NCBI RefSeq assembly: GCF_001428525.1
Contig: NZ_LMHW01000001.1
Coordinates: forward strand, 124,705 to 188,704
Source: Flavobacterium sp. Root186
Lineage (GTDB): Bacteria > Bacteroidota > Bacteroidia > Flavobacteriales > Flavobacteriaceae
DNA: 64,000 nt
Reading direction: 5' to 3'
Shown: piece by piece, positions 23,053-32,672 of the stretch
How positions within the stretch are numbered: position 1 is the first letter of the stretch
Layout: each line of letters begins with the position of its first letter
Made by a program: the position numbers and the translations under genes
The notes under the pieces: model-generated
Seen by the model: only the letters and a program-made list of their open reading frames with translations
What the model was told of the DNA's origin: nothing
Databases searched by the model: none

Positions 23053-23290
23053 AATTGGAAAGGCTATTGCTTTTTTAAAGGTATCATGGAGTATACTGCA
23101 AACTAGAAATTAACATTTGAATATTCTCAAAAATCAATTTCAGGCAAAAATTAAAAATTAGTGTTAAATATATGCATCGAATTTGCATTTATTTGGTTAA
23201 AATTATCCGATTTATTCATATTTACAGTCGCTTTTTCTTAATTTACTTTTAAAACTTCATTAAACAGCTGTTAAATCTTAACAAGAATTC

Positions 23291-23321
23291 ATTGTAAATC
23301 GTGTAGGAAAACGTATATTTG
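23291..23321 (+). promoter_or_regulatory. Promoter of the kai operon
   Basis: ATTG (23291-23294), 19 nt, then TATATTTG (23314-23321) matches the Bacteroidota -33/-7 pattern. It lies 23 nt before the GTG start of kaiC. Confidence 0.65.
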
Positions 23322-23344
23322 AGAGAATACTGAATTTTATTATC

Positions 23345-25018
23345 GTGCAAGAAAAAACAAAATCACATCATTTTATATTTCCAAAAACTCCAACCGGAGT
23401 TGACGGACTAGACGAGATTACGGATGGAGGATTTCCGCAAGGACGCCCAACTTTAATCTGCGGCGGCGCCGGATGCGGAAAAACATTATTATCAATGCAA
23501 TTCCTTATTAAAGGCATTACAGAATTCAACGAACCCGGAGTTTTCATGTCTTTTGAAGAACCTTCGGATGATCTTACCCTAAATGTAAAATCTCTTGGCT
23601 TTGACCTCGAACAACTTAAAAAAGATAAAAAACTCGTAGTCGATCATGTTCGCGTCGAAAGATCAGAAATTGAAGAAGCCGGCGAATACGATCTTGATGG
23701 TTTATTCATAAGATTGGGCCACGCCATCGATTCTATAAAAGCGACTCGTGTTGTTCTGGATACTATCGAATCTTTATTTGCAGGTCTTGATAATCAGGCA
23801 ATCCTGCGAGCCGAATTACGAAGATTATTCCATTGGCTCAAAACAAAAGGCGTTACAGCTGTTATTACCGGAGAACGAGGTGAAGCAACCTTAACCCGTC
23901 AGGGATTAGAAGAATACGTTTCAGACTGCGTTATTGTTCTCGACCATCGTGTTATTGAACAGGTTTCGACCCGAAGACTCCGAATTGTAAAATACAGAGG
24001 TTCAACACACGGAACAAACGAATATCCGTTTTTAATTGATGAAGAGGGAATTTCAGTACTTCCTATTACGTCGTTAAAACTGGATAACGAAGTTTCTTCA
24101 GATGTAATTCCAACAGGTGTTCCCGGATTAAATGAGATGTTTCATGGCGGAGGTTTCTATCGCGGAAGCAATATTTTGGTATCAGGAACGGCGGGAACGG
24201 CCAAAACTACCGTTGCCTGTTATTTTGCCAACGAACAATGCGAAAAGAACGAAAAAACAATTTATTTTGCTTTTGAAGAATCGCCGCAGCAATTGGTTCG
24301 CAACATGAAATCGATTGGTATTGACCTTGAAAAACACATTAAAAAAGGCATTCTGCAAATTCATTCTTCACGTCCGTCATTAAACGGACTTGAACTGCAT
24401 TTACTTACGCTTAGAAAATTAATCAAAGAATTTGAACCTACCACTATTATTATTGACCCAATCAGCAATCTTATTACCGTAGGAAGCGAACATGAAGTTC
24501 GTTCTATGCTCGTACGATTAATCGATATGCTTAAAGCCAACAATATTACGGCCATGTTTACGTCTTTAAATAAACAGACAGATAATTTCAGACCAGATTT
24601 GGCCGAAGAATCCGTTTCGTCTTTAGTAGATACCTGGATTACCGTTCGTGATATGGAAGGCGTAGGCGAAAGAAACCGTGGTATTTTTATCATCAAAGCC
24701 AGAGGAATGGGACATTCTAACCAGGTAAGGGAATTTGTGATAACTGGTAAGGGAATCGAGTTACTGGATGTAGAATTAGGCCCGCAGGGAATCCTGACCG
24801 GAGCTGCGAGAAAATCACATCAGTTTAAGAAAACCATTTCGGATATTAAGCTTCAAAACGAAATTAGCCGAAAAGACCGTGAAATCGAACGCAAACGTAA
24901 AGTCCTTGAAGCCAATATTGAAGCCTTAAGAACCGAATTTGAATCGGCAGAAGAAGAACTGAGTATCCTTAAAGCAACAGAAGAATTGCAGGAAAAACTG
25001 TCTTCTAAGAAAAAATAA
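23345..25018 (+). CDS. kaiC: KaiC-family double-domain ATPase
   Basis: 557 aa, GTG start. Two tandem RecA-like domains as in cyanobacterial KaiC: the first with Walker A GGAGCGKT (40-47) and catalytic Glu pair [10 protein letters not shown], the second with GTAGTAKT and [10 protein letters not shown]. The position of the cyanobacterial Ser/Thr autophosphorylation pair reads SVSSLVDTW, so two hydroxyl residues (Ser-Ser) are kept. A charged C-terminal coiled coil of about 55 residues replaces the cyanobacterial tail. Followed at 7 nt by kaiB. There is no kaiA, so a KaiBC-based stress or timing switch is more likely than a full oscillator. Confidence 0.95.
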
Positions 25019-25025
25019 AATTAAA

Positions 25026-25319
25026 ATGAAAAAAGAAGTAGCCGAATGGCAATTATTGCTCTATATAGCGGGTCAAACGCCAAAATCGATCAAGGCGCTG
25101 GAGAACATAAAAAAATACGCCGAAGAACACTTAAAAGGAAAATACAGCATCGAGATTATCGATTTGCTGAAGAATCCGCAATTGGCAGAAGGCGATCAAA
25201 TTTTGGCTGTACCAACCCTGGTGAGAAAATTTCCTGAACCTATTCGTAAAATTATAGGTGACCTTTCTAATGAAGAAAGAGTGCTTGTAGGACTTAATAT
25301 TAAACCTGTAAACGCTTAG
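25026..25319 (+). CDS. kaiB: KaiB-family protein 1
   Basis: 97 aa, close to the usual KaiB length. The thioredoxin-like KaiB core is clear: [60 protein letters not shown]. KaiB proteins bind the KaiC first ring after a fold switch and can recruit output kinases. It lies between kaiC and a second kaiB paralogue with 2-nt spacing. Confidence 0.95.
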
Positions 25320-25321
25320 AC

Positions 25322-25621
25322 ATGGAAGATTCATCTGATGGCACAAGTACAACCAAACATAAGTTCAAACTTTTTGTTTCAGGTATGTCTGTTAAATCAG
25401 GACATGCAATCGAAAATTTACGCAGAATATGCGATACTTATCTCAACAACAATTACGAATTAGAAATTATAGATATCAGCCGTGATAAGGAACAAGCCGT
25501 GATTCATCAAATTGTGGCAATCCCAACATTAATCAAAATACATCCTGAACCCAAAAGAATCATTTTGGGCGATTTATCAGATAAAGAAAAGGTCTTGTAT
25601 ATATTAAACATTGAACAATAA
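25322..25621 (+). CDS. kaiB: KaiB-family protein 2
   Basis: 99 aa. Same fold as its neighbour but divergent: FKLFVSGMSVKSGHAIENLR, LEIIDISRDKEQAVIHQIVA, IPTLIKIHPEPKRIILGDLS. The conserved NPQLA segment is replaced by DKEQAV. Two unequal KaiB copies beside one KaiC suggest alternative binding partners or a heteromeric ring. Its 3' end overlaps the putative start of the downstream kinase. Confidence 0.92.
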   Translation: MEDSSDGTSTTKHKFKLFVSGMSVKSGHAIENLRRICDTYLNNNYELEIIDISRDKEQAVIHQIVAIPTLIKIHPEPKRIILGDLSDKEKVLYILNIEQ

Positions 25622-26879
25622 TTTGGAGGTAAAAAAAAGAAATATAGAATCGTTATTAGCAGAAATAGAATCCTTAAAAGAAGAACTTTTTGAATCTAAT
25701 AGTATTGTAAATGCAATAAAACAAGGAGATGTTGATGCTTTAGTCGTAAGTAACAACGGAGTTCCGGAGCTATACTCTCTCGAAACTGCCGATTATACTT
25801 ACAGGCTTCTTATTGAAAAATTCCGACAGGGTGCGCTTAGTATTTCGCGCAAAGGACTCGTATTGTATTGCAACGATTATTTTTCAGAACTCGTTGGCAT
25901 TCCTTCAGAGCAGATTATCGGGACGTATTTAAATGAATATTTTGATAATCCCACGCAGTTTGTCCAGCTTATTCAGGCGCTTCGATACGGAATCGCCACG
26001 CACGAAATTCTTTTTAAATCGAATAACGACAAAGAAACTTTTCCGGCTTATATCGCCTTAACCGATCTCGAACCTGCCGTAGAAGCAATTGGAATCGTAA
26101 TTACCGATTTAACCGAAAAGAAAAAACACGAGGAAGCCTTAATTCGTCATCAGCAGGAATTAGAAGAAAAAATAAAAGAGTTAAACCGAATCAATACCAA
26201 TCTCGAAGAATTTATTCATGTTATTTCACATGATTTAAAAGAACCGCTTCGGAAAATTGTAATGCATAATGACCGAATTGACGGAAGTTATCTTTCTGAA
26301 ACCGATGCCAAATCCATGAATGTTCTAAAATCATCTGCATTGCGGTTGAATTCACTTGTTGATGATTTGGTCCAGTATTCATCGCACACGGCGCAGGAAG
26401 AACGAACCGAAATTAATTTAGCCTCTATAATTGGTGAAGTTATTGAAGATCTCGAAATTATTATTACTGATAAAAAGGCCAAGATTCAAATAGGAAAACT
26501 CCCTGCCATAAAAGCCTCTAAAGTCCAAATTCGACAGCTTTTTGGCAACCTGATTACCAACGCCATAAAATACAGCAAAGAAGCTGTCGCTCCGTTTATA
26601 GAAATTTATCAGGCCGAAAATTTAAACGCCGAAATGCCAAATCAAAACGCTAAATTTGTAAAGATACAGATCAAAGACAACGGAATTGGCATGGAATCAA
26701 GCCATCTTCTTAAAATCTTTACCATTTTTCAGCGCCTTCATGCCCGAAACGAATATTCAGGAAACGGTATTGGCCTTGCGATTTGTAAAAAGATCATGGA
26801 AAACCATTCCGGAAACATAACCGTCGAAAGTACGCTCAACGAAGGCACAACATTTAATCTTTACTTTCCCATTGTATAA
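25611..26879 (+). CDS. PAS-domain sensor histidine kinase of the kai operon
   Basis: 422 aa, cytoplasmic. Coiled-coil N-terminus, PAS domain (about 55-175: YRLLIEKFRQGALSISRKGL, VLYCNDYFSELVG), HisKA with phosphoacceptor in HVISHDLKEPLRKI, and HATPase with LFGNLITNAIKYSK, IKDNGIGM and GNGIGLAICKKI. No ATG is available: the start is TTG at 25611 (inside kaiB2) or TTG at 25623. It probably reads the KaiBC state and phosphorylates the receiver protein that follows. Confidence 0.93.
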   Translation: MNNNLEVKKRNIESLLAEIESLKEELFESNSIVNAIKQGDVDALVVSNNGVPELYSLETADYTYRLLIEKFRQGALSISRKGLVLYCNDYFSELVGIPSEQIIGTYLNEYFDNPTQFVQLIQALRYGIATHEILFKSNNDKETFPAYIALTDLEPAVEAIGIVITDLTEKKKHEEALIRHQQELEEKIKELNRINTNLEEFIHVISHDLKEPLRKIVMHNDRIDGSYLSETDAKSMNVLKSSALRLNSLVDDLVQYSSHTAQEERTEINLASIIGEVIEDLEIIITDKKAKIQIGKLPAIKASKVQIRQLFGNLITNAIKYSKEAVAPFIEIYQAENLNAEMPNQNAKFVKIQIKDNGIGMESSHLLKIFTIFQRLHARNEYSGNGIGLAICKKIMENHSGNITVESTLNEGTTFNLYFPIV

Positions 26880-26880
26880 A

Positions 26881-27285
26881 ATGCCACAAAAAAACAACCT
26901 ACATATCATAATTGCCGAAGATGACTTTGATGACGCTGACGTAATCTGCGAAACCTTCAACCAAAACCCGAATTTCGGAAAAGTAAGCCTTGTAGCCAAT
27001 GGCGAAGAACTGCTCAATTACCTTAAAGACACGGCAAACGAAAACCCCGACGTAATCCTGACCGATATCAACATGCCCATAGTCAACGGCATCGAAGCCT
27101 TACAGCAAATTTTGAATAACAACGATTTAAAAACGATTCCGTGTTTTGTATATTCTACAAGCATCAATCCCGCTTACAAAGAAAAATGCGACGCGCTGGG
27201 CGTAAAAGCTTATCTTATTAAACCTTATTCTTTTGAGGCTTTCGCCGAAATTCCGAAGACTATTTTGAGGATTATTGAAGATTAA
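26881..27285 (+). CDS. Single-domain response regulator of the kai operon
   Basis: 134 aa receiver only, of the Rcp1/CheY-like type that accompanies PAS and phytochrome kinases. IIAEDDFDDADVI supplies the acidic residues, VILTDINMPIVNG the phosphoacceptor, VYSTS the switch residue and LIKPYS the Lys. I start it at ATG 26881, 1 nt after the kinase stop. With no output domain it probably passes phosphate or binds a partner. Confidence 0.93.
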   Translation: MPQKNNLHIIIAEDDFDDADVICETFNQNPNFGKVSLVANGEELLNYLKDTANENPDVILTDINMPIVNGIEALQQILNNNDLKTIPCFVYSTSINPAYKEKCDALGVKAYLIKPYSFEAFAEIPKTILRIIED

Positions 27286-27487: not shown

Positions 27488-28159
27488 CTAATATTGTAAA
27501 CAGTTATATCCCATATTCTTTTTCAAATCATTTAAGAGATTTAGCATTGCTTTCTTTTTTTCTATACTTTGCTTAGTTCTTAAAACATTCACAATTTCTT
27601 TATTTATTCTTATTCTTATTCTATTATAAACTCTCTTAATATCATAATCATCTATAAGCCAATCAAATACAGAATTGCCAATTATTCGAATCAATTTACC
27701 TTTAAACTCTTCAATAATTTCTTTATCAACGTTTTCATAGATTGTATTTTCAAATTCACGCGCTCCCAGAACTTCATCCATATCTGAAGGAATATCGTCA
27801 AATCCTATATAGCTAAAATTCTTAACATATCTAAAAAAGTCAATTGATTTACATGAAAAACTAAGTACATTTTTGTTTTTAAAAATTTCTAAATCATTCT
27901 TTCCAATAAAAATTTCTTTAGAATATATTTCATTTTTTGCGCCTTTTAAACTAGTTGAAGTTCCATGACCCAAAAAGAGAATATTATCTCCATCAAAATT
28001 AGAAATTTCTTTTAAAACAAGAGAATGCTCATCGTCTGTAAAGGCAATATTGTATAAACTTATCTTATCATCGAATTGCTCCAACAAAAAACTCCATATT
28101 GAGTTTAAAAATTGTGTCGTAACATCTTTTGGATGAATAATAAGTAATCTATTCATCAC
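27488..28159 (-). CDS. Putative caspase/CHAT-like cysteine protease, last gene of the methyltransferase operon
   Basis: 223 aa. Residues 58-66 (GDNILFLGHG) and 96-105 (KNVLSFSCKS) give a His65/Cys103 pair in the arrangement of clan CD proteases: hydrophobic strand plus HG, then hydrophobic strand plus C, about 38 residues apart, as in CHAT and caspase domains. A Ser/Thr/Gly loop follows the His. The last 70 residues are Lys/Arg/Ile-rich helices. No signal peptide. Its start overlaps the receiver gene by 11 nt. I infer an intracellular effector. No family match can be verified here, and the dyad is the whole case. Confidence 0.55.
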   Translation of the reverse strand: MMNRLLIIHPKDVTTQFLNSIWSFLLEQFDDKISLYNIAFTDDEHSLVLKEISNFDGDNILFLGHGTSTSLKGAKNEIYSKEIFIGKNDLEIFKNKNVLSFSCKSIDFFRYVKNFSYIGFDDIPSDMDEVLGAREFENTIYENVDKEIIEEFKGKLIRIIGNSVFDWLIDDYDIKRVYNRIRIRINKEIVNVLRTKQSIEKKKAMLNLLNDLKKNMGYNCLQY

Positions 28160-28856
28160 TATGATTTTTTAAGTCAACCAGAAAAGCTATAGATTCTTCA
28201 ATTAATCCTTTTTTAAAATGAATACTTCTATCAGGATCATTTTCGATAATTGAAGCAATTTCAGCAAAAGTCAAGTTTTCAAATTTTTCAAAATTACCAA
28301 GAAATTTTAAATCACTATTGTTTCTTAGTTCTTTTACTAATACTGTTTCCAAACTTGGATTATTTTTATGCAAATACTTTACTATTGCCATTTCATATTC
28401 ATCCCTGTCTTTAAAATCAACAATATCAATTTCGACTAAAGTTTTTATTTGATTCCAAGCTTTCTTAAATTCAATTTTTTCGTCTTTATATAAATTTAAC
28501 AAGCCCTCCATTTCAACTTTTAATTCTCCTGAATACAGGAGTTTAGGTGTAGATCGACGAAGTTTGTTGTCTTGAAAGCATTTAATAAGTTCAACACCGT
28601 TAATTTCATCATCATCCAATGACCAATCAAATGCAATCAAATCAAAAGTAATTCCTCCATATTGTTTATGAAATTCTGCTATCACTTTTTTTAAGTCAAT
28701 TTTATTATCAGTCAAAAATTCAGGATTATTTGTTGAACCCACATTAAATTGATAACATTTTATTGTAGTTCCTATTTTTTTTCCCTCACGTTCGATAGTC
28801 TCGATGCTCGAAATTTGATTTTCGTTATCTATTAATAAACATGTTTTTTCTTCCAT
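28149..28856 (-). CDS. Divergent receiver-domain protein of the methyltransferase operon
   Basis: 235 aa from ATG 28856 (an upstream ATG at 28871 overlaps the previous gene). The first 115 residues follow the receiver pattern: CLLIDNEN (Asp10, Glu12), LIAFDWSLDDDEINGVELIK with Asp77 at the phosphoacceptor position, and KLLYSGE with Ser109 as switch residue. The expanded acidic loop after Asp77 is unusual. The C-terminal half is helical and of unknown fold. It follows the dual-GHKL gene by 1 nt and overlaps the protease-like gene, so it plausibly links sensor and effector. Confidence 0.75.
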   Translation of the reverse strand: MEEKTCLLIDNENQISSIETIEREGKKIGTTIKCYQFNVGSTNNPEFLTDNKIDLKKVIAEFHKQYGGITFDLIAFDWSLDDDEINGVELIKCFQDNKLRRSTPKLLYSGELKVEMEGLLNLYKDEKIEFKKAWNQIKTLVEIDIVDFKDRDEYEMAIVKYLHKNNPSLETVLVKELRNNSDLKFLGNFEKFENLTFAEIASIIENDPDRSIHFKKGLIEESIAFLVDLKNHSDE

Positions 28857-28857
28857 T

Positions 28858-31314
28858 TTAAATAAAATCAATTTTAAATGTTGCTCCAGACAATTTTATT
28901 CCATTCCCAACAAAGGAAATTTTCGCTTGCATTTGATTTAATGCGTTCCTAACGGAATTTAGACCAATACCTGAACCATCAGTTGTTGTAATTCCTAATT
29001 CAAATATTTTTTCAGGTCTATCCAAAAAAACATTACTTAACCCTTTTCCATCATCAGAAAATAATATTTCAAGTCCATTCTGGATATCAATCTGAATAAT
29101 TTTAGCTCCAGCTTTTTCAGAATTGGAAATTAAATCATCTATAATTAATGACAATTCTAAGATACTTAATCTCTTTTCAAATACTTCTACGCTATTATTA
29201 TTGAATACAAATTGTAATTTTGAATTCTCATACATATCTGAATATATAGAAATATATTGTTCTATATATCTAACAACATCGACTATTTGTGTATTGGCTT
29301 GTGTTTTAAAATTTGATCTAGTAATCAGTTTACTAATTTTTAAGGCCTTTTCAGAATTGAAGTTTATAACTTCTAACCTTCTAATCAATTCTTTATCTTT
29401 AATTTCTTTGTTTCTAATTTTTTCAATTAAGGTATGTACATTTGATTGAATATTTTTAGAAGTTATCTTTATATTATGTATCAATCCTTTTGCATCTTCG
29501 CTTAAACCCCTACTTGAATATCTTAAATAAGTATTCTTTTCAATTTCAAATTGTAACTCTTCTTCTAATTTCTTTTTTTCAGCCTCTAATTTTTGTCTTT
29601 CTCTTTCTACTTCTAATTTTTCTAATTGAAGGCTTGAAAATTGATTTAATGCTTCGGTTAATTTTTTTTGTATATAATCAAATTTTTCAATACCAAATTC
29701 ATTAGATTCACTAATTTTCGTGTCAGATTGCAATATTTCGACTTCGTTTATTTTTCTCTTTAAATTTGATGTAATTTTTTCTAGATCTTCTATAGTATAA
29801 TTTTCAGCTATATTCCCTATTAGCTCATCAACTTCATTGCTTTTCTTTTCGATTTCTTTATCTATAATATTGCCTATAAACTTTTCATTAATCTGCAAAG
29901 TTTTAATTTCATCTTTTTTTAGACCAATTATTGGAACTATACTATTTAATGCACGTCTAATTTTTACAAGTTCGTCTTCCTTAAACTCTTCTTTACTTTC
30001 GTCCCAACTTTCACTTAGTACTTTTTTTTCAATATTCTCATCTTTTTCTCTAGCACTATCCCATTTTAATCCTTCAACAACATATCGTTCTAATCTTCTA
30101 TGCGTTTTAAAATAAAAGCCATAAGGTGCTGATTCTTTAGTTAATTCCTCAAAAACATCATTATTAACTATTCCAGCTCGACTGGAAATAATCTTAAATT
30201 GGCTATTATGATCAATAACCTCAATTCTTCCTAATAATTCTCGAGCACCGATAAATCTATTATATCCCTGACCTTTTCTTAATTCAAGATTTAACCAATC
30301 GTCTCCATCATCTCCATAAGGCGGAATTCGGAAACCATTTATAAATAAAAATATTGAACCAAAATGAACAGATCTTATTCCAGTTTGTCTAGTGAAATAT
30401 GCTTTAGCATAAGGGTTAAGATAAAAAATGGTAATCTTAATATCTTTTAAAAGAGAATATCTATTTTCTTCTGTTAGAGTAAATACATTTACTCCTCTAT
30501 CAAATAATTTTGTTGTTATAATTTTGCCTTCTGAATCAATTGTAGACTCAATTGAGGTGGATTTAAAGTTTAATTCATCAAATACTCTATTTCCAACTTC
30601 TCCATTTATTTTCTGATGATATGGTAGATTATTATCATCAATTTCATTGGCAATAATTTCTATTTTGAATTTATCATTTGAAAAAGCTTGATTAGGATTA
30701 ATCAATTTTTCTAAGTTATTTTTAAGATTGAGAATCTTATTATAATCCCATTCTCTTCTTAATTTTTTGATTTCTAATATTGTTCCACTACTAAAGCTAT
30801 CATAGCCAGTATAAGTTATAAATTCGTCAACACTTAATTTGACCAATCTCAAATCAATATCTTGAATATTTAATTCTAAATTATCATCTATTTCAAACTT
30901 TGTCCAATCAATGTAAAGATGATTTATCGTTTCATCATTCGAGGTTCTTGTGTAGAGATTTAAATATTCTCCTAATCTATCACAAGAAAATCTTCCAACT
31001 CCTTTATTTCCTGCTAATAGCCTATCTCCAATATTTTTTGAATTCTTTTTCTCTGAATAAGCTATGTTTAACCATTTATCCTGAATATCTTTTTCATTCA
31101 TTCCTTTTCCAAAATCCTGAATAACTAATTTTGAATTTTCAATGTTTTCATCGAAAATATTACTAAAAATTATATTTACAGATTTAGATAATGCATCAAA
31201 AGAATTTTTTACTAATTCTAAAACTGCAATGTTGTCATCAGTAATTAAATCTTTTCCAATTATACTTTTTAACAGAACATTGGTTTTAAAATGTAGTTTT
31301 TCAGAATCACCCAT
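28858..31314 (-). CDS. 818-aa dual-GHKL protein: MORC/Hsp90-type ATPase plus histidine-kinase-like module
   Basis: The N-terminal GHKL ATPase (about 20-220) has N-box AVLELVKNSFDA (Glu33, Asn37, Asp40), G1 VIQDFGKGM (67-71), the MORC/MutL-like WLNIAYSEK and G2 GNKGVGRFS (102-109). A transducer-like region follows (to about 430), then a long Glu/Lys/Leu coiled coil (about 470-610). The C-terminus carries an H-box-like GLIHNIKITSKNIQS and a second complete HATPase: LIIDDLISNSEKAGA, FSDDGKGLS and GSGIGLNSV. Having both modules in one chain is uncommon. It overlaps the methyltransferase gene by 8 nt. I infer a sensor or clamp-like ATPase that signals to the receiver protein. Confidence 0.85.
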   Translation of the reverse strand: MGDSEKLHFKTNVLLKSIIGKDLITDDNIAVLELVKNSFDALSKSVNIIFSNIFDENIENSKLVIQDFGKGMNEKDIQDKWLNIAYSEKKNSKNIGDRLLAGNKGVGRFSCDRLGEYLNLYTRTSNDETINHLYIDWTKFEIDDNLELNIQDIDLRLVKLSVDEFITYTGYDSFSSGTILEIKKLRREWDYNKILNLKNNLEKLINPNQAFSNDKFKIEIIANEIDDNNLPYHQKINGEVGNRVFDELNFKSTSIESTIDSEGKIITTKLFDRGVNVFTLTEENRYSLLKDIKITIFYLNPYAKAYFTRQTGIRSVHFGSIFLFINGFRIPPYGDDGDDWLNLELRKGQGYNRFIGARELLGRIEVIDHNSQFKIISSRAGIVNNDVFEELTKESAPYGFYFKTHRRLERYVVEGLKWDSAREKDENIEKKVLSESWDESKEEFKEDELVKIRRALNSIVPIIGLKKDEIKTLQINEKFIGNIIDKEIEKKSNEVDELIGNIAENYTIEDLEKITSNLKRKINEVEILQSDTKISESNEFGIEKFDYIQKKLTEALNQFSSLQLEKLEVERERQKLEAEKKKLEEELQFEIEKNTYLRYSSRGLSEDAKGLIHNIKITSKNIQSNVHTLIEKIRNKEIKDKELIRRLEVINFNSEKALKISKLITRSNFKTQANTQIVDVVRYIEQYISIYSDMYENSKLQFVFNNNSVEVFEKRLSILELSLIIDDLISNSEKAGAKIIQIDIQNGLEILFSDDGKGLSNVFLDRPEKIFELGITTTDGSGIGLNSVRNALNQMQAKISFVGNGIKLSGATFKIDFI

Positions 31315-32542
31315 CTAAAAGCCCTTTCATAATTATTGCGCTTTGTTCTCCAAATAAAGGTGGTATAGCGTTACCTATTTGTGAATATCTAGGAACTTCT
31401 TGAGTTCGTCTTTTACCTCCTGTTGTATATTTACCTCTAAACTGATACCAATCATTGAATGATTGTATTCTTGCATATTCTCTCACAGTGAAAATTCTGG
31501 GTTCACAATAATGGATATAATCATCAGGAAGAGTAGTAATTGTTGCTGTTGGAGTATTTCCTGAAAGTGGTATAATTGTTCGTTTTTTTAAATCAAATAT
31601 ATTTTTTATTGTATCAGATAAAGTTTTATTCTTCTCTGCATTATTTAAAATATATTCAAATTTTTCTAATGTAGATTTAGCATGTTTTGCAAATCTATGA
31701 CTATCAGGAACTAATCTATCATCTACACCTTGACGTAGTAATTCTTGATAGTTTGATTTTACACTGCCATACATTCCTGCTTTAAAACTCTTTGTGTCTG
31801 GAGATTCTACTTCTTTGCCTTCTTTTAATAGATCTGAAATAGCCTGTTCAAGATTATTAGTGACACCTATGTTTTTAGTAATTAGAAAAGATTCTTTATT
31901 TTCATCCAAAGATTTAAAGAATGATGATGCTTTATTTTTATTCAAAAGCCCTTTTTTTATTCCCACTAAAATAAAACGAGTTCGTTTTTGGGGTATTCCA
32001 TATAGCGAAAAATCTACTAATTTGCCATAAACGTCATAACCAGGAAAATCGTTAGTCTTGGCTCTTAAAGCTTTTAGAACATATTCTGAATAGGCTTTTC
32101 CTTTACTTTTGTTTTTATCAAATTTTTGAGTAAACCCTTTTACATTTTCAAAAAAAATCATCTTTGGTTGAACAAGTCTGATAAAATTAATATAAGATTT
32201 TATAAGTTTATTTCTTTCATCTGTTTCAATTCTTCTCCCAGCCGTAGAGAATCCTTGACATGGAGGACCTCCTGCTACTAAGTCGATTTTACCTCTAAGA
32301 TCTTTAAGTTCAGGGCTATATTCTTTAAGAATAAAATTAATATCTAACTCTTTTTCTGGCAACCAATTTGGCCATTCAAAATGTTTTTTTGATCTAATTA
32401 GATTATAACTCAGTGTTTCAAAGGCATCTTTATTTTTTTCTACAGCAAACAACCCTTTCCAAAGTCCTGAATTATGTAACCCTAAAGAAAGCCCACCGCA
32501 TCCAGCGAATAAATCAATATATAAAGATTTATTTTTATCCAT
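31307..32542 (-). CDS. DNA (cytosine-5-)-methyltransferase
   Basis: 411 aa from ATG 32542. All key C5 motifs are present: I DLFAGCGGLSLGL, IV GGPPCQGFSTAGRR with the catalytic Cys, VI FFENVKGF, VIII QKRTRFILVG, and X QIGNAIPP near the C-terminus. The target-recognition region lies between about 230 and 350. The reading frame extends upstream to 32665, but a promoter at 32564-32594 rules that out; ATG 32557 is the only other credible start. No restriction endonuclease is encoded nearby. It heads the four-gene operon and would mark host DNA. Confidence 0.95.
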   Translation of the reverse strand: MDKNKSLYIDLFAGCGGLSLGLHNSGLWKGLFAVEKNKDAFETLSYNLIRSKKHFEWPNWLPEKELDINFILKEYSPELKDLRGKIDLVAGGPPCQGFSTAGRRIETDERNKLIKSYINFIRLVQPKMIFFENVKGFTQKFDKNKSKGKAYSEYVLKALRAKTNDFPGYDVYGKLVDFSLYGIPQKRTRFILVGIKKGLLNKNKASSFFKSLDENKESFLITKNIGVTNNLEQAISDLLKEGKEVESPDTKSFKAGMYGSVKSNYQELLRQGVDDRLVPDSHRFAKHAKSTLEKFEYILNNAEKNKTLSDTIKNIFDLKKRTIIPLSGNTPTATITTLPDDYIHYCEPRIFTVREYARIQSFNDWYQFRGKYTTGGKRRTQEVPRYSQIGNAIPPLFGEQSAIIMKGLLDG

Positions 32543-32563
32543 AGTGTTTTTTTTCATTTTATA

Positions 32564-32594
32564 CAAAAATATATAAAAAAGAAATATATTCAAT
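32564..32594 (-). promoter_or_regulatory. Promoter of the methyltransferase operon
   Basis: On the minus strand ATTG (32591-32594), 19 nt, TATTTTTG (32564-32571). This is the same spacing as the kai promoter. The start of transcription would fall around 32557-32560, giving a leaderless or very short leader mRNA. Confidence 0.6.
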
Positions 32595-32672
32595 GCTTTT
32601 TTTAAAGTATAAAAACTTACTAATTTAATAAATATAAAAACGATTTTTAGATAAAATTTGGGCAAAGAATAC

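Follow-up and report, generated by a model that had tools for sequence, protein, structure and literature searches.

What might a KaiC protein with two different KaiB partners do in a bacterium that lacks KaiA? This question is raised by a locus of Flavobacterium sp. Root186. Within the window (the whole 64,000-nucleotide stretch that was analyzed), gene calls place kaiC, two kaiB genes, a PAS histidine kinase, and a lone receiver in one compact KaiA-less operon at positions 23292-27285. The kaiC gene (23345..25018, + strand) is separated by 7 nt from kaiB-a (25026..25319, +), which lies 2 nt from kaiB-b (25322..25621, +), and 1 nt separates the kinase gene (25623..26879, +) from the receiver gene (26881..27285, +). 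The tight spacing described in the sequence-only reading thus held, except for an overlap at the kinase start that is probably unreal. As judged from related sequences, the TTG at 25623, 1 nt past the kaiB-b stop, is the likelier start, with a second TTG at 25611 as the alternative. A start codon stands at the position of TTG 25623 in 29 of 48 relatives tallied (28 TTG, 1 ATG); 18 others have a TTG seven codons further upstream, and 1 has neither.

The products match their Pfam families above the cut-offs, which confirms that KaiC is accompanied by a pair of unequal KaiBs, the PAS kinase, and the receiver. KaiB-a (97 aa) and KaiB-b (99 aa) score 92.6 and 88.5 bits against PF07689 (cut-off 27), KaiC scores 396 bits against PF06745, and the kinase contains PAS, HisKA, and HATPase_c domains. 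Gene order is identical in 63/63 Flavobacterium-type loci (62 in one survey plus L022), and the receiver gene was not found in three of the 63 (L061, L070, and L073). A strain of F. johnsoniae (L028) is among the carriers of the operon. Median dN/dS against the window ranges from 0.026 to 0.097 across the five genes (pairs with dS of 0.2-1.5 were kept, 18 to 43 of 48 per gene). The conserved order and low dN/dS indicate that the operon is more than a chance arrangement. The kaiC-kaiB-kaiB-kinase order was found again in several phyla, and the gene set is present in several phyla, Flavobacterium and Hymenobacter among them. The kind of operon is already known: the available text of published reports describes kaiC-kaiB-PAS/HK operons in R. 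palustris and R. sphaeroides (PMC4794148), kinases or GGDEF/EAL proteins adjoining kaiBC (PMC3164672), and Bacteroidetes with KaiB2/KaiC2 only (PMC5520375).

The absence of KaiA and SasA, also proposed from the sequence, was borne out at the level of the genome. A search with PF07688 found no KaiA at E 0.001, and in a control search of 14 genomes this model matched in S. elongatus only. The KaiB family occurs at two places in the genome, both inside the operon, so there is no kinase with a recognizable KaiB-like domain; the operon kinase has no PF07689 match and is not a SasA by this measure.

The promoter expected ahead of the operon probably lies at 23292..23323 (+), with TTG at 23292 and TATATTTG at 23314-23321, within a conserved block, GAAAACGTATATTTGAG, that has few changes in the window and the 29 of 63 Flavobacterium-type loci that were aligned. 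The Bacteroidota -7 consensus is TAnnTTTG. Upstream of it, the palindromic block AAACAGCTGTTAAA (23262..23275, no strand assigned) is a possible operator, being mostly kept across 30 aligned upstream regions and changed in L024, L026, L033, L041, L045, and L064. It was rejected as a regulon marker because the 5.53 Mb genome contains it in exact form only once, upstream of kaiC; with one mismatch, it occurs at 25 places versus 8 for a reversed control pattern. Four terminator candidates were found, all on the - strand, and none lies 3' of the receiver on the + strand.

KaiC (557 aa, GTG start) consists of two RecA-like domains, each with a Walker A motif (GGAGCGKT at 40 and GTAGTAKT at 281) and a catalytic Glu pair (71/72 and 311/312), as in KaiC2 and KaiC-RS. 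Both Glu pairs and the Ser-Ser phosphosite, here located at Ser425-Ser426, had been recognized previously. Its best solved relative is 8dba (residues 13-550, E 7.6e-181). The protein extends 86 residues beyond the CII core, and its coiled-coil-like tail (about residues 490-557; 24812..25015, +) aligns with the R. sphaeroides KaiC tail through residue 550, consistent with a C-terminal extension of the type with about 50 residues of coiled coil. The best match, the tail, and the Ser-Ser site together assign this KaiC to the KaiC2 / R. sphaeroides type; the KaiC2 class is defined by two Ser in the available text of PMC5520375. KaiC of R. sphaeroides is described as running without KaiA, as an ATP/ADP-driven hourglass (PMC10076222, available portion).

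The kinase carries the H-box SHDLKEP as well as N and G boxes, and its PAS domain (PF00989 / PF13426) spans 25800..26120 (+). In front of the PAS domain, at the kinase N terminus, is a 65-residue module, here called NT (25641..25835, +), which the sequence-only reading, otherwise partly supported, had missed. By eye, NT appears as a heptad-like helix, after which two short strands run into PAS. An NT model, built from 25 of the 110 ORFs that it matched, was run against 14,331 ORFs of 151 loci; all 110 lie directly 3' of a kaiC-kaiB pair. Across 919 genomes, the distance to a KaiB is 27-284 nt for each of the 44 strong matches. The idea that NT is simply a general feature of PAS proteins was rejected, as 0/119 PAS/HK ORFs located elsewhere than after kaiC-kaiB match. 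In two large samples, 38 genomes with kaiC followed by kaiB have NT and four do not (L172, L177, L179, and L227). The module is joined to HisKA, HWE, hybrid HK, HD-GYP, and GGDEF-EAL outputs, and the kinase adjoining the R. sphaeroides timer also begins with it. By sequence comparison, NT appears to tie the Flavobacterium kinase to kaiC-kaiB operons of other phyla. Such operons would thus share a small extra module that is perhaps a timer reader.

Comparison of NT with known families gave weak matches and none that was convincing: those in the PDB were mostly coiled coils (best E 0.0054), and in Pfam, matches to LysR_substrate came from 9/25 members (best E 0.00063) and matches to coiled-coil families from a few. 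These matches and the by-eye appearance would suit a rival view, in which NT is no more than the helical linker and the PAS cap found in a single kinase/effector lineage that accompanies kaiC-kaiB; it would dimerize or sense a small ligand and make no contact with KaiC or KaiB. We consider this unlikely, however, because NT is kept while the outputs vary, and a plain linker would be expected elsewhere too, whereas no strong match lies away from kaiB in the 919 genomes. Docking of NT on the KaiC tail was also considered, and it is weakened by three Flavobacteriaceae (L182, L183, and L185) in which NT is present and the tail is absent. No NT-like module of KaiC2-linked kinases was found in the open-access literature searched, as far as its available text goes.

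The receiver has the motifs EDDFDD, TDINMP, STS, and KPYS and matches PF00072 only, in agreement with the earlier description of a receiver without output. The regulator next to the kinase is thus a receiver domain with no DNA-binding output matched, different from the SasA-RpaA arrangement.

We then compared the two KaiBs. In KaiB-b, DKEQA stands at the site of NPQLA in KaiB-a, and the sequence-only reading held that, with this loss, KaiB-b may compete with or block KaiB-a. Competition for the CI site remains plausible, since it agrees with the predicted fold described below; a block by NPQLA loss is improbable. While some second KaiBs of other groups lack PxLA (L084 and L184), others retain it (L079 as QQPQLA, L085 as QNPHLA, and L082, L095, and L161), so NPQLA loss is no mark of second KaiBs. 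Moreover, the replacing segment sits in a helix in the KaiB-b model, and its loss alone therefore gives no explanation of a block.

Two trees set the first-position KaiBs and the R. sphaeroides KaiB (KaiB-RS) apart from the second-position KaiBs, and KaiB-a groups with KaiB-RS by sequence. In the 167-row tree, in which Flavobacterium rows were thinned, a 55-row set (SH-aLRT 96) contains all 47 first-position rows, KaiB-RS, 6/18 single KaiBs, and the orphan L228, and holds zero second-position rows. The 89-row tree additionally leaves out the Anabaena KaiB, Lpp1115, L172, L227, a total of 12/18 single KaiBs, and every upstream KaiB except five; it groups 45 first-position, single, and RS rows with support of 93/80 and places all 39 second-position rows on one side with weak support (55/58). 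That last placement, together with the presence of kaiB-b in 63/63 Flavobacterium-type loci, argues against the view that KaiB-b arose recently from KaiB-a as a redundant duplicate and is on its way to being lost. KaiB-b does evolve faster (dN/dS 0.097 vs 0.026), lineages with a single KaiB exist, and a constraint joining Flavobacterium KaiB-a with KaiB-b was not rejected at 5% (p-AU 0.06), but the KaiB-b ratio is low all the same, and we regard such a copy as very unlikely. KaiB-b is optional, as 15/44 NT genes have one KaiB nearby. This weakens the idea of a split SasA, in which KaiB-b would supply the KaiB-like domain that the kinase lacks, and so does the finding that KaiB number does not predict output type in nine scanned effectors. 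Inspection of the L182/L183 gap by eye in three frames revealed no recognizable kaiB-b remnant.

Both KaiBs were modeled with AF2 from matched 13-row alignments, and the best of five models was taken for each (mean pLDDT 80.9-68.1 for KaiB-b and 76.3-57.4 for KaiB-a). One state was obtained per protein. The KaiB-a model adopts the ground state, matching 2qke with a TMq of 0.88 and switched chains with at most 0.45, whereas KaiB-b is predicted in the thioredoxin, KaiC-binding fold (4kun_B, 0.82; KaiC-bound 8fwj_M, 0.75; SasA-N 6x61, 0.64-0.68). In these models, the predicted fold is a stronger difference between the two proteins than NPQLA loss. Comparison across operons suggests that a second KaiB with a different fold is often present. 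I68R and V83D belong to a triple mutant that turns KaiB-RS to the switched fold, as the available text of PMC10808063 describes. When these positions were transferred to other KaiBs with an offset of 2, both were hydrophobic in 96/96 first-position KaiBs, and position 68 was R, K, E, or Q in 57/64 Flavobacterium KaiB-b proteins (K in the window). Only 11/32 second KaiBs outside Flavobacterium are polar at position 68, and the predicted fold may thus not hold group-wide. The Gly and Asp of GDLS are retained in 64/64 Flavobacterium KaiB-b proteins. In the available part of PMC5520375, the conserved Gly of the KaiB2 class is read as a hint that the free protein may not favor the switched state; this Gly counts against a thioredoxin fold for KaiB-b.

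Taken together, we infer that the operon encodes a KaiC2 timer or energy-state switch that works independently of KaiA and is read by its own two-component system via NT-PAS, with KaiB-b as an always-switched competitor of KaiB-a; we give this reading a probability of about 0.5. By analogy with R. sphaeroides, KaiC would autophosphorylate at Ser425/Ser426 without KaiA. KaiB-a would rest in the ground state and need to switch fold before binding phosphorylated KaiC. KaiB-b, already thioredoxin-folded, could occupy the same CI site without the fold-switch delay and, like a free SasA N-domain, would compete with KaiB-a and time the closure of the KaiB-a ring. Cyanobacterial SasA and KaiB are reported to compete for KaiC (PMC6769508, available text). 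The NT-PAS front of the kinase would dock on and sense the KaiC/KaiB state, and the kinase would phosphorylate the lone receiver to pass the signal on. More tentatively, at somewhat under even odds, NT may be the dedicated reader of KaiA-less KaiC2 timers, a counterpart of the SasA N-domain with a different make-up and swappable outputs, and KaiB-b, fixed in the switched state, may either nucleate the KaiB-a ring or block it.

The operon could instead be a stress or energy-status sensor in which KaiC reports ATP/ADP to the kinase and no delay or timer is involved. Flavobacterium is not phototrophic, which fits such a sensor. In Legionella and in Pseudomonas, kai genes have been linked to stress, according to work cited in the available text of PMC11372060, and the R. 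sphaeroides hourglass depends on external resetting (PMC10076222, PMC11372060, in part). Legionella KaiC2 in particular is linked to the stress response, as cited in the available text of PMC5520375, so a timing role does not follow here. We nevertheless find a pure sensor doubtful, because the operon retains the slow parts of a timer: the two phosphosites, the two ATPase sites, and KaiB-a, whose predicted fold is the ground state.

If KaiB-b is indeed permanently switched, a single operon would carry the two states of a metamorphic protein, each as its own gene. No KaiB pair with opposite folds within one operon was found in the available text of the open-access literature searched. Two such genes would allow the ground and switched roles to be separated genetically. 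NT, so tightly tied to kaiC-kaiB operons, is a concrete candidate for the link from a KaiA-less KaiBC timer to the cell, and it also lies beside the C. sphaeroides timer, the only timer of this kind whose structures have been solved.

In the phototroph Cereibacter (Rhodobacter) sphaeroides, an NT-PAS kinase (WP_011331301) lies directly downstream of the timer, as in Flavobacterium, but it is of the HWE rather than the HisKA type. The C. sphaeroides timer also differs in having one KaiB and no receiver annotated beside it and in its location on plasmid pB. Its KaiC-KaiB pair shares the coiled-coil-tailed KaiC, the Ser-Ser site, a first-position-type KaiB, and the lack of KaiA (PMC10076222), and the main text of that report, in its available portion, mentions neither SasA, an operon, nor a histidine kinase. 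Rhodopseudomonas palustris has the same order of kaiC, kaiB, and PAS histidine kinase, with a single KaiB as described in the available text of PMC4794148. In Ramlibacter, kaiC adjoins a kinase as here, but KaiB is absent; the N-terminal region of that kinase, RtaNt, was proposed to be SasA-like (PMC3164672, in part). NT is absent from the genes adjoining kaiC in two kaiB-less stretches, Variovorax L253 and Sphingobium L254. The cyanobacterial KaiABC and SasA-RpaA system has KaiC, KaiB, a kinase, and a receiver output in common with this operon, whereas Flavobacterium lacks KaiA, its kinase starts with NT instead of a KaiB-like domain, and its receiver has no output domain. The best structural match of KaiB-b, Legionella pneumophila Lpp1115 (4kun), is a KaiB relative crystallized in the thioredoxin fold; in the 167-row tree it falls among KaiBs encoded upstream of kaiC, on a long branch that makes the placement unsure. 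Thermosynechococcus KaiB-TV4 (8ubh), which differs from KaiB-b in being cyanobacterial and having an N-terminal extension, is described as a KaiB variant locked in the thioredoxin fold, the state predicted here for KaiB-b (PMC10808063).

Five genes, encoding KaiC, two KaiB proteins, a PAS histidine kinase and a single-domain receiver, lie head to tail on the plus strand at window positions 23345-27285, as the sequence-only reading had claimed. We named the KaiB proteins KaiB-a and KaiB-b in order of position to avoid confusion with the Synechocystis KaiB1/2/3 classes. With the kinase starting at TTG 25623, which relatives favor over TTG 25611, the intergenic gaps are 7, 2, 1, and 1 nt; the earlier spacing of 7, 2, and final 1 nt is thus retained, while the proposed overlap at the kinase probably gives way to a 1-nt gap. 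The genome (17 contigs, 5.53 Mb), whose near relatives among the named genomes are Flavobacterium, yielded no KaiA, in keeping with the same reading, and no KaiB-family places outside the operon. Upstream of kaiC, a palindromic block at 23262-23275, AAACAGCTGTTAAA, is mostly conserved across 30 aligned Flavobacterium-type upstream regions and is possibly the operator of the operon; it has one exact copy in the genome and 25 one-mismatch copies versus 8 for a reversed control. Facing the operon on the minus strand is a convergent cassette (27488-32665) with genes for a C5 cytosine methyltransferase, for an 818-aa protein that carries a pair of GHKL ATPase domains (HATPase_c_3 plus HATPase_c), and for two further proteins with no match in Pfam or PADLOC. 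It could be a modification or defense cassette.

The N terminus of the kinase is a module of about 65 residues, termed NT, with the consensus LxxExxELRxRLxEAEETLxAIRxGxVDALVVxGxxGxQIYTLxxADxxYRxLIExMxEGA and 4 invariant columns in an alignment of 25 diverse rows. No Pfam family matched the window row at E 1; 9 of the 25 rows touched LysR_substrate (best E 0.00063), the other hits being chance-like coiled-coil families, and the top PDB match was a coiled coil (E 0.0054). A search with the NT profile through three phyla (395, 398, and 126 genomes, respectively) gave 50 matches at E 0.001, 44 strong (E <=2.8e-9) and 6 partial (E >=7.8e-6). All 44 strong matches lie 27-284 nt from a KaiB match, with two KaiBs nearby in 29 and one in 15, as against none of the 6 partial ones. 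Additional copies may have been missed, since the best 15 first-look candidates were scored per genome in many of the 395 and 398 genomes; all were scored in the 126-genome rows shown.

We also compared 151 loci, comprising the window, 70 fetched regions, and 80 named loci (the best 80 of 103 relatives from a scan with the window KaiC). NT is present on 110 of their 14,331 stop-to-stop ORFs, every one directly 3' of a kaiC-kaiB pair; 25 of these 110 served to build the profile. It was found in none of the 119 PAS or histidine kinase ORFs elsewhere in these loci and none of the 7 beside other KaiBs. Eight genes following a kaiC-kaiB pair lack NT, 7 of them in kaiB-kaiC-kaiB clusters. In three loci (L172, L177, and L179), kaiC-kaiB is present but NT is absent, and their kaiB is not directly followed by a PAS or histidine kinase gene; among the NT exceptions, KaiB is very divergent in L227 and a contig end falls in L228. 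The profile did not match the genes adjoining kaiC in kaiB-less Variovorax and Sphingobium stretches or the Aquisphaera gene preceding kaiB-kaiC. Four loci (L162, L187, L225, and L226) have kaiB adjoining histidine kinase genes with no kaiC within the fetched stretch.

The output domains attached to NT vary. The window kinase carries HisKA, and among nine other NT proteins scanned, NT is joined to an HWE kinase (L216), a HATPase-receiver hybrid (L220), HD-GYP-type HD_5 (L168, L174, and L085), or GGDEF-EAL (L205, L093, and L090), PAS and GAF being the only matches in L218. NT also starts the kinases of Pararhizobium (95.4 bits, two KaiBs), Rhizobium BG4 (74.5), and Sinorhizobium B11 (73.1), and likewise the HWE kinase adjoining kaiC-kaiB in Cereibacter sphaeroides 2.4.1 (58.8 bits).

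The kaiC-kaiB-kaiB-kinase order occurs in 63/63 Flavobacterium-type loci, 60 of which also have the receiver, in Hymenobacter and Pseudohoeflea, and in MAGs labeled by their records as Methylococcaceae, Lentisphaerae, Oscillochloris, Opitutaceae, Ignavibacteria, Gemmatimonadetes, and others. Two KaiBs lie downstream of kaiC in 96 of the 151 loci. In even samples, KaiB matches at E 0.001 were found in 39/395 genomes of the window's own phylum (37 above the Pfam cut-off) and 38/398 of the Pseudohoeflea phylum (37 above it). A recurrent alternative layout, in most of L190-L212 (not L205 or L207), is receiver, receiver, kaiB, kaiC, PAS protein, and receiver-histidine kinase-receiver hybrid, sometimes with a second kaiB after kaiC, and has no NT. 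KaiC2-type operons are plasmid borne in C. sphaeroides (pB), Pararhizobium, and Rhizobium, the latter two plasmids being typed conjugative; such modules may therefore move.

The window KaiC contains Walker A together with the Glu pairs and Ser-Ser phosphosite that had been claimed for it; two Ser residues are described as the KaiC2 hallmark (PMC5520375). Its top solved relatives are R. sphaeroides KaiC structures (8dba and 8fwi; E 7.6e-181, residues 13-550), versus E 2e-111 to about 1e-93 for the remaining full-length KaiC chains. The match extends through the C-terminal tail, which in R. sphaeroides is reported to form a coiled coil linking two hexamers (PMC10076222). The tail has at least 81 residues in the kaiC-first operons tabulated, except for 8-14 in L182, L183, and L185; the 63 Flavobacterium-type rows were summarized without tail lengths. 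These three Flavobacteriaceae loci have KaiC without the coiled-coil tail yet retain NT on the kinase.

The two KaiBs are predicted to adopt opposite folds. Following a small-alignment AF2 approach modeled on PMC10808063, each KaiB was submitted with relatives from the same 12 loci. KaiB-a was modeled in the ground state (2qke, TMq 0.88; switched chains <=0.45) and KaiB-b in the thioredoxin fold (4kun, 0.82; KaiC-bound KaiB-RS, 0.75; SasA N-domain, 0.64-0.71). Positions 68 and 83, both among the sites changed in a fold-flipping triple mutant of KaiB-RS, are hydrophobic in 96/96 first-position KaiBs. In Flavobacterium KaiB-b, position 68 is R/K/E/Q in 57/64 (K in the window) and position 83 is R/K/E in 46/64 (Y in the window); in Flavobacterium, these residues agree with the predicted folds. 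However, all 64 Flavobacterium KaiB-b proteins retain the GDLS Gly, which counts against a switched fold, as the conserved Gly of the KaiB2 class is described as a sign that this state may not be favored (PMC5520375). Position 68 is polar in only 11/32 second KaiBs outside Flavobacterium; the contrast, still a prediction, is thus firmest for Flavobacterium.

The pair looks old on 95 alignment columns, with limited support, because trees part first- from second-position rows and a Flavobacterium-only duplication is disfavored, not rejected (p-AU 0.06). In a 167-row tree with 31/163 inner branches well supported, one 55-row set (SH-aLRT 96) holds 47/47 first-position KaiBs, KaiB-RS, 6/18 single KaiBs, and one orphan; second-position KaiBs are absent from it and do not form one set. 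A second, carefully built tree of 89 selected rows places first-position, single, and RS rows together on one side (93/80), and on a separate, weak branch 39/39 second-position rows fall on one side (55/58). KaiB-b is less constrained than KaiB-a in Flavobacterium (dN/dS 0.097 and 0.026), constrained nonetheless.

In the likeliest scheme, the window KaiC would undergo a KaiC2 phosphorylation cycle that follows ATP/ADP without KaiA, by analogy with KaiC-RS, for which this is known. KaiB-a would bind after a fold switch, whereas KaiB-b, if always switched, would bind immediately and compete, as SasA is reported to compete with KaiB in cyanobacteria (PMC6769508). NT-PAS would sense the KaiC/KaiB state and signal through the kinase to the receiver; we infer NT docking from gene linkage alone. 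Of the partners of kaiC-kaiB, NT is the most constant, while KaiB-b and the output domain differ between operons; NT therefore makes the better reader candidate, and KaiB-b the better candidate for a modulator.

Our literature searches found no report of NT or its near-exclusive kaiC-kaiB linkage, of its shuffling among outputs, or of two KaiBs that recur as a pair and are predicted to fold in opposite ways. Published accounts describe kaiC-kaiB-PAS/histidine kinase operons (PMC4794148), kinases or GGDEF/EAL proteins adjoining kaiBC (PMC3164672), Bacteroidetes with KaiB2/KaiC2 (PMC5520375), and switched KaiB variants (PMC10808063).
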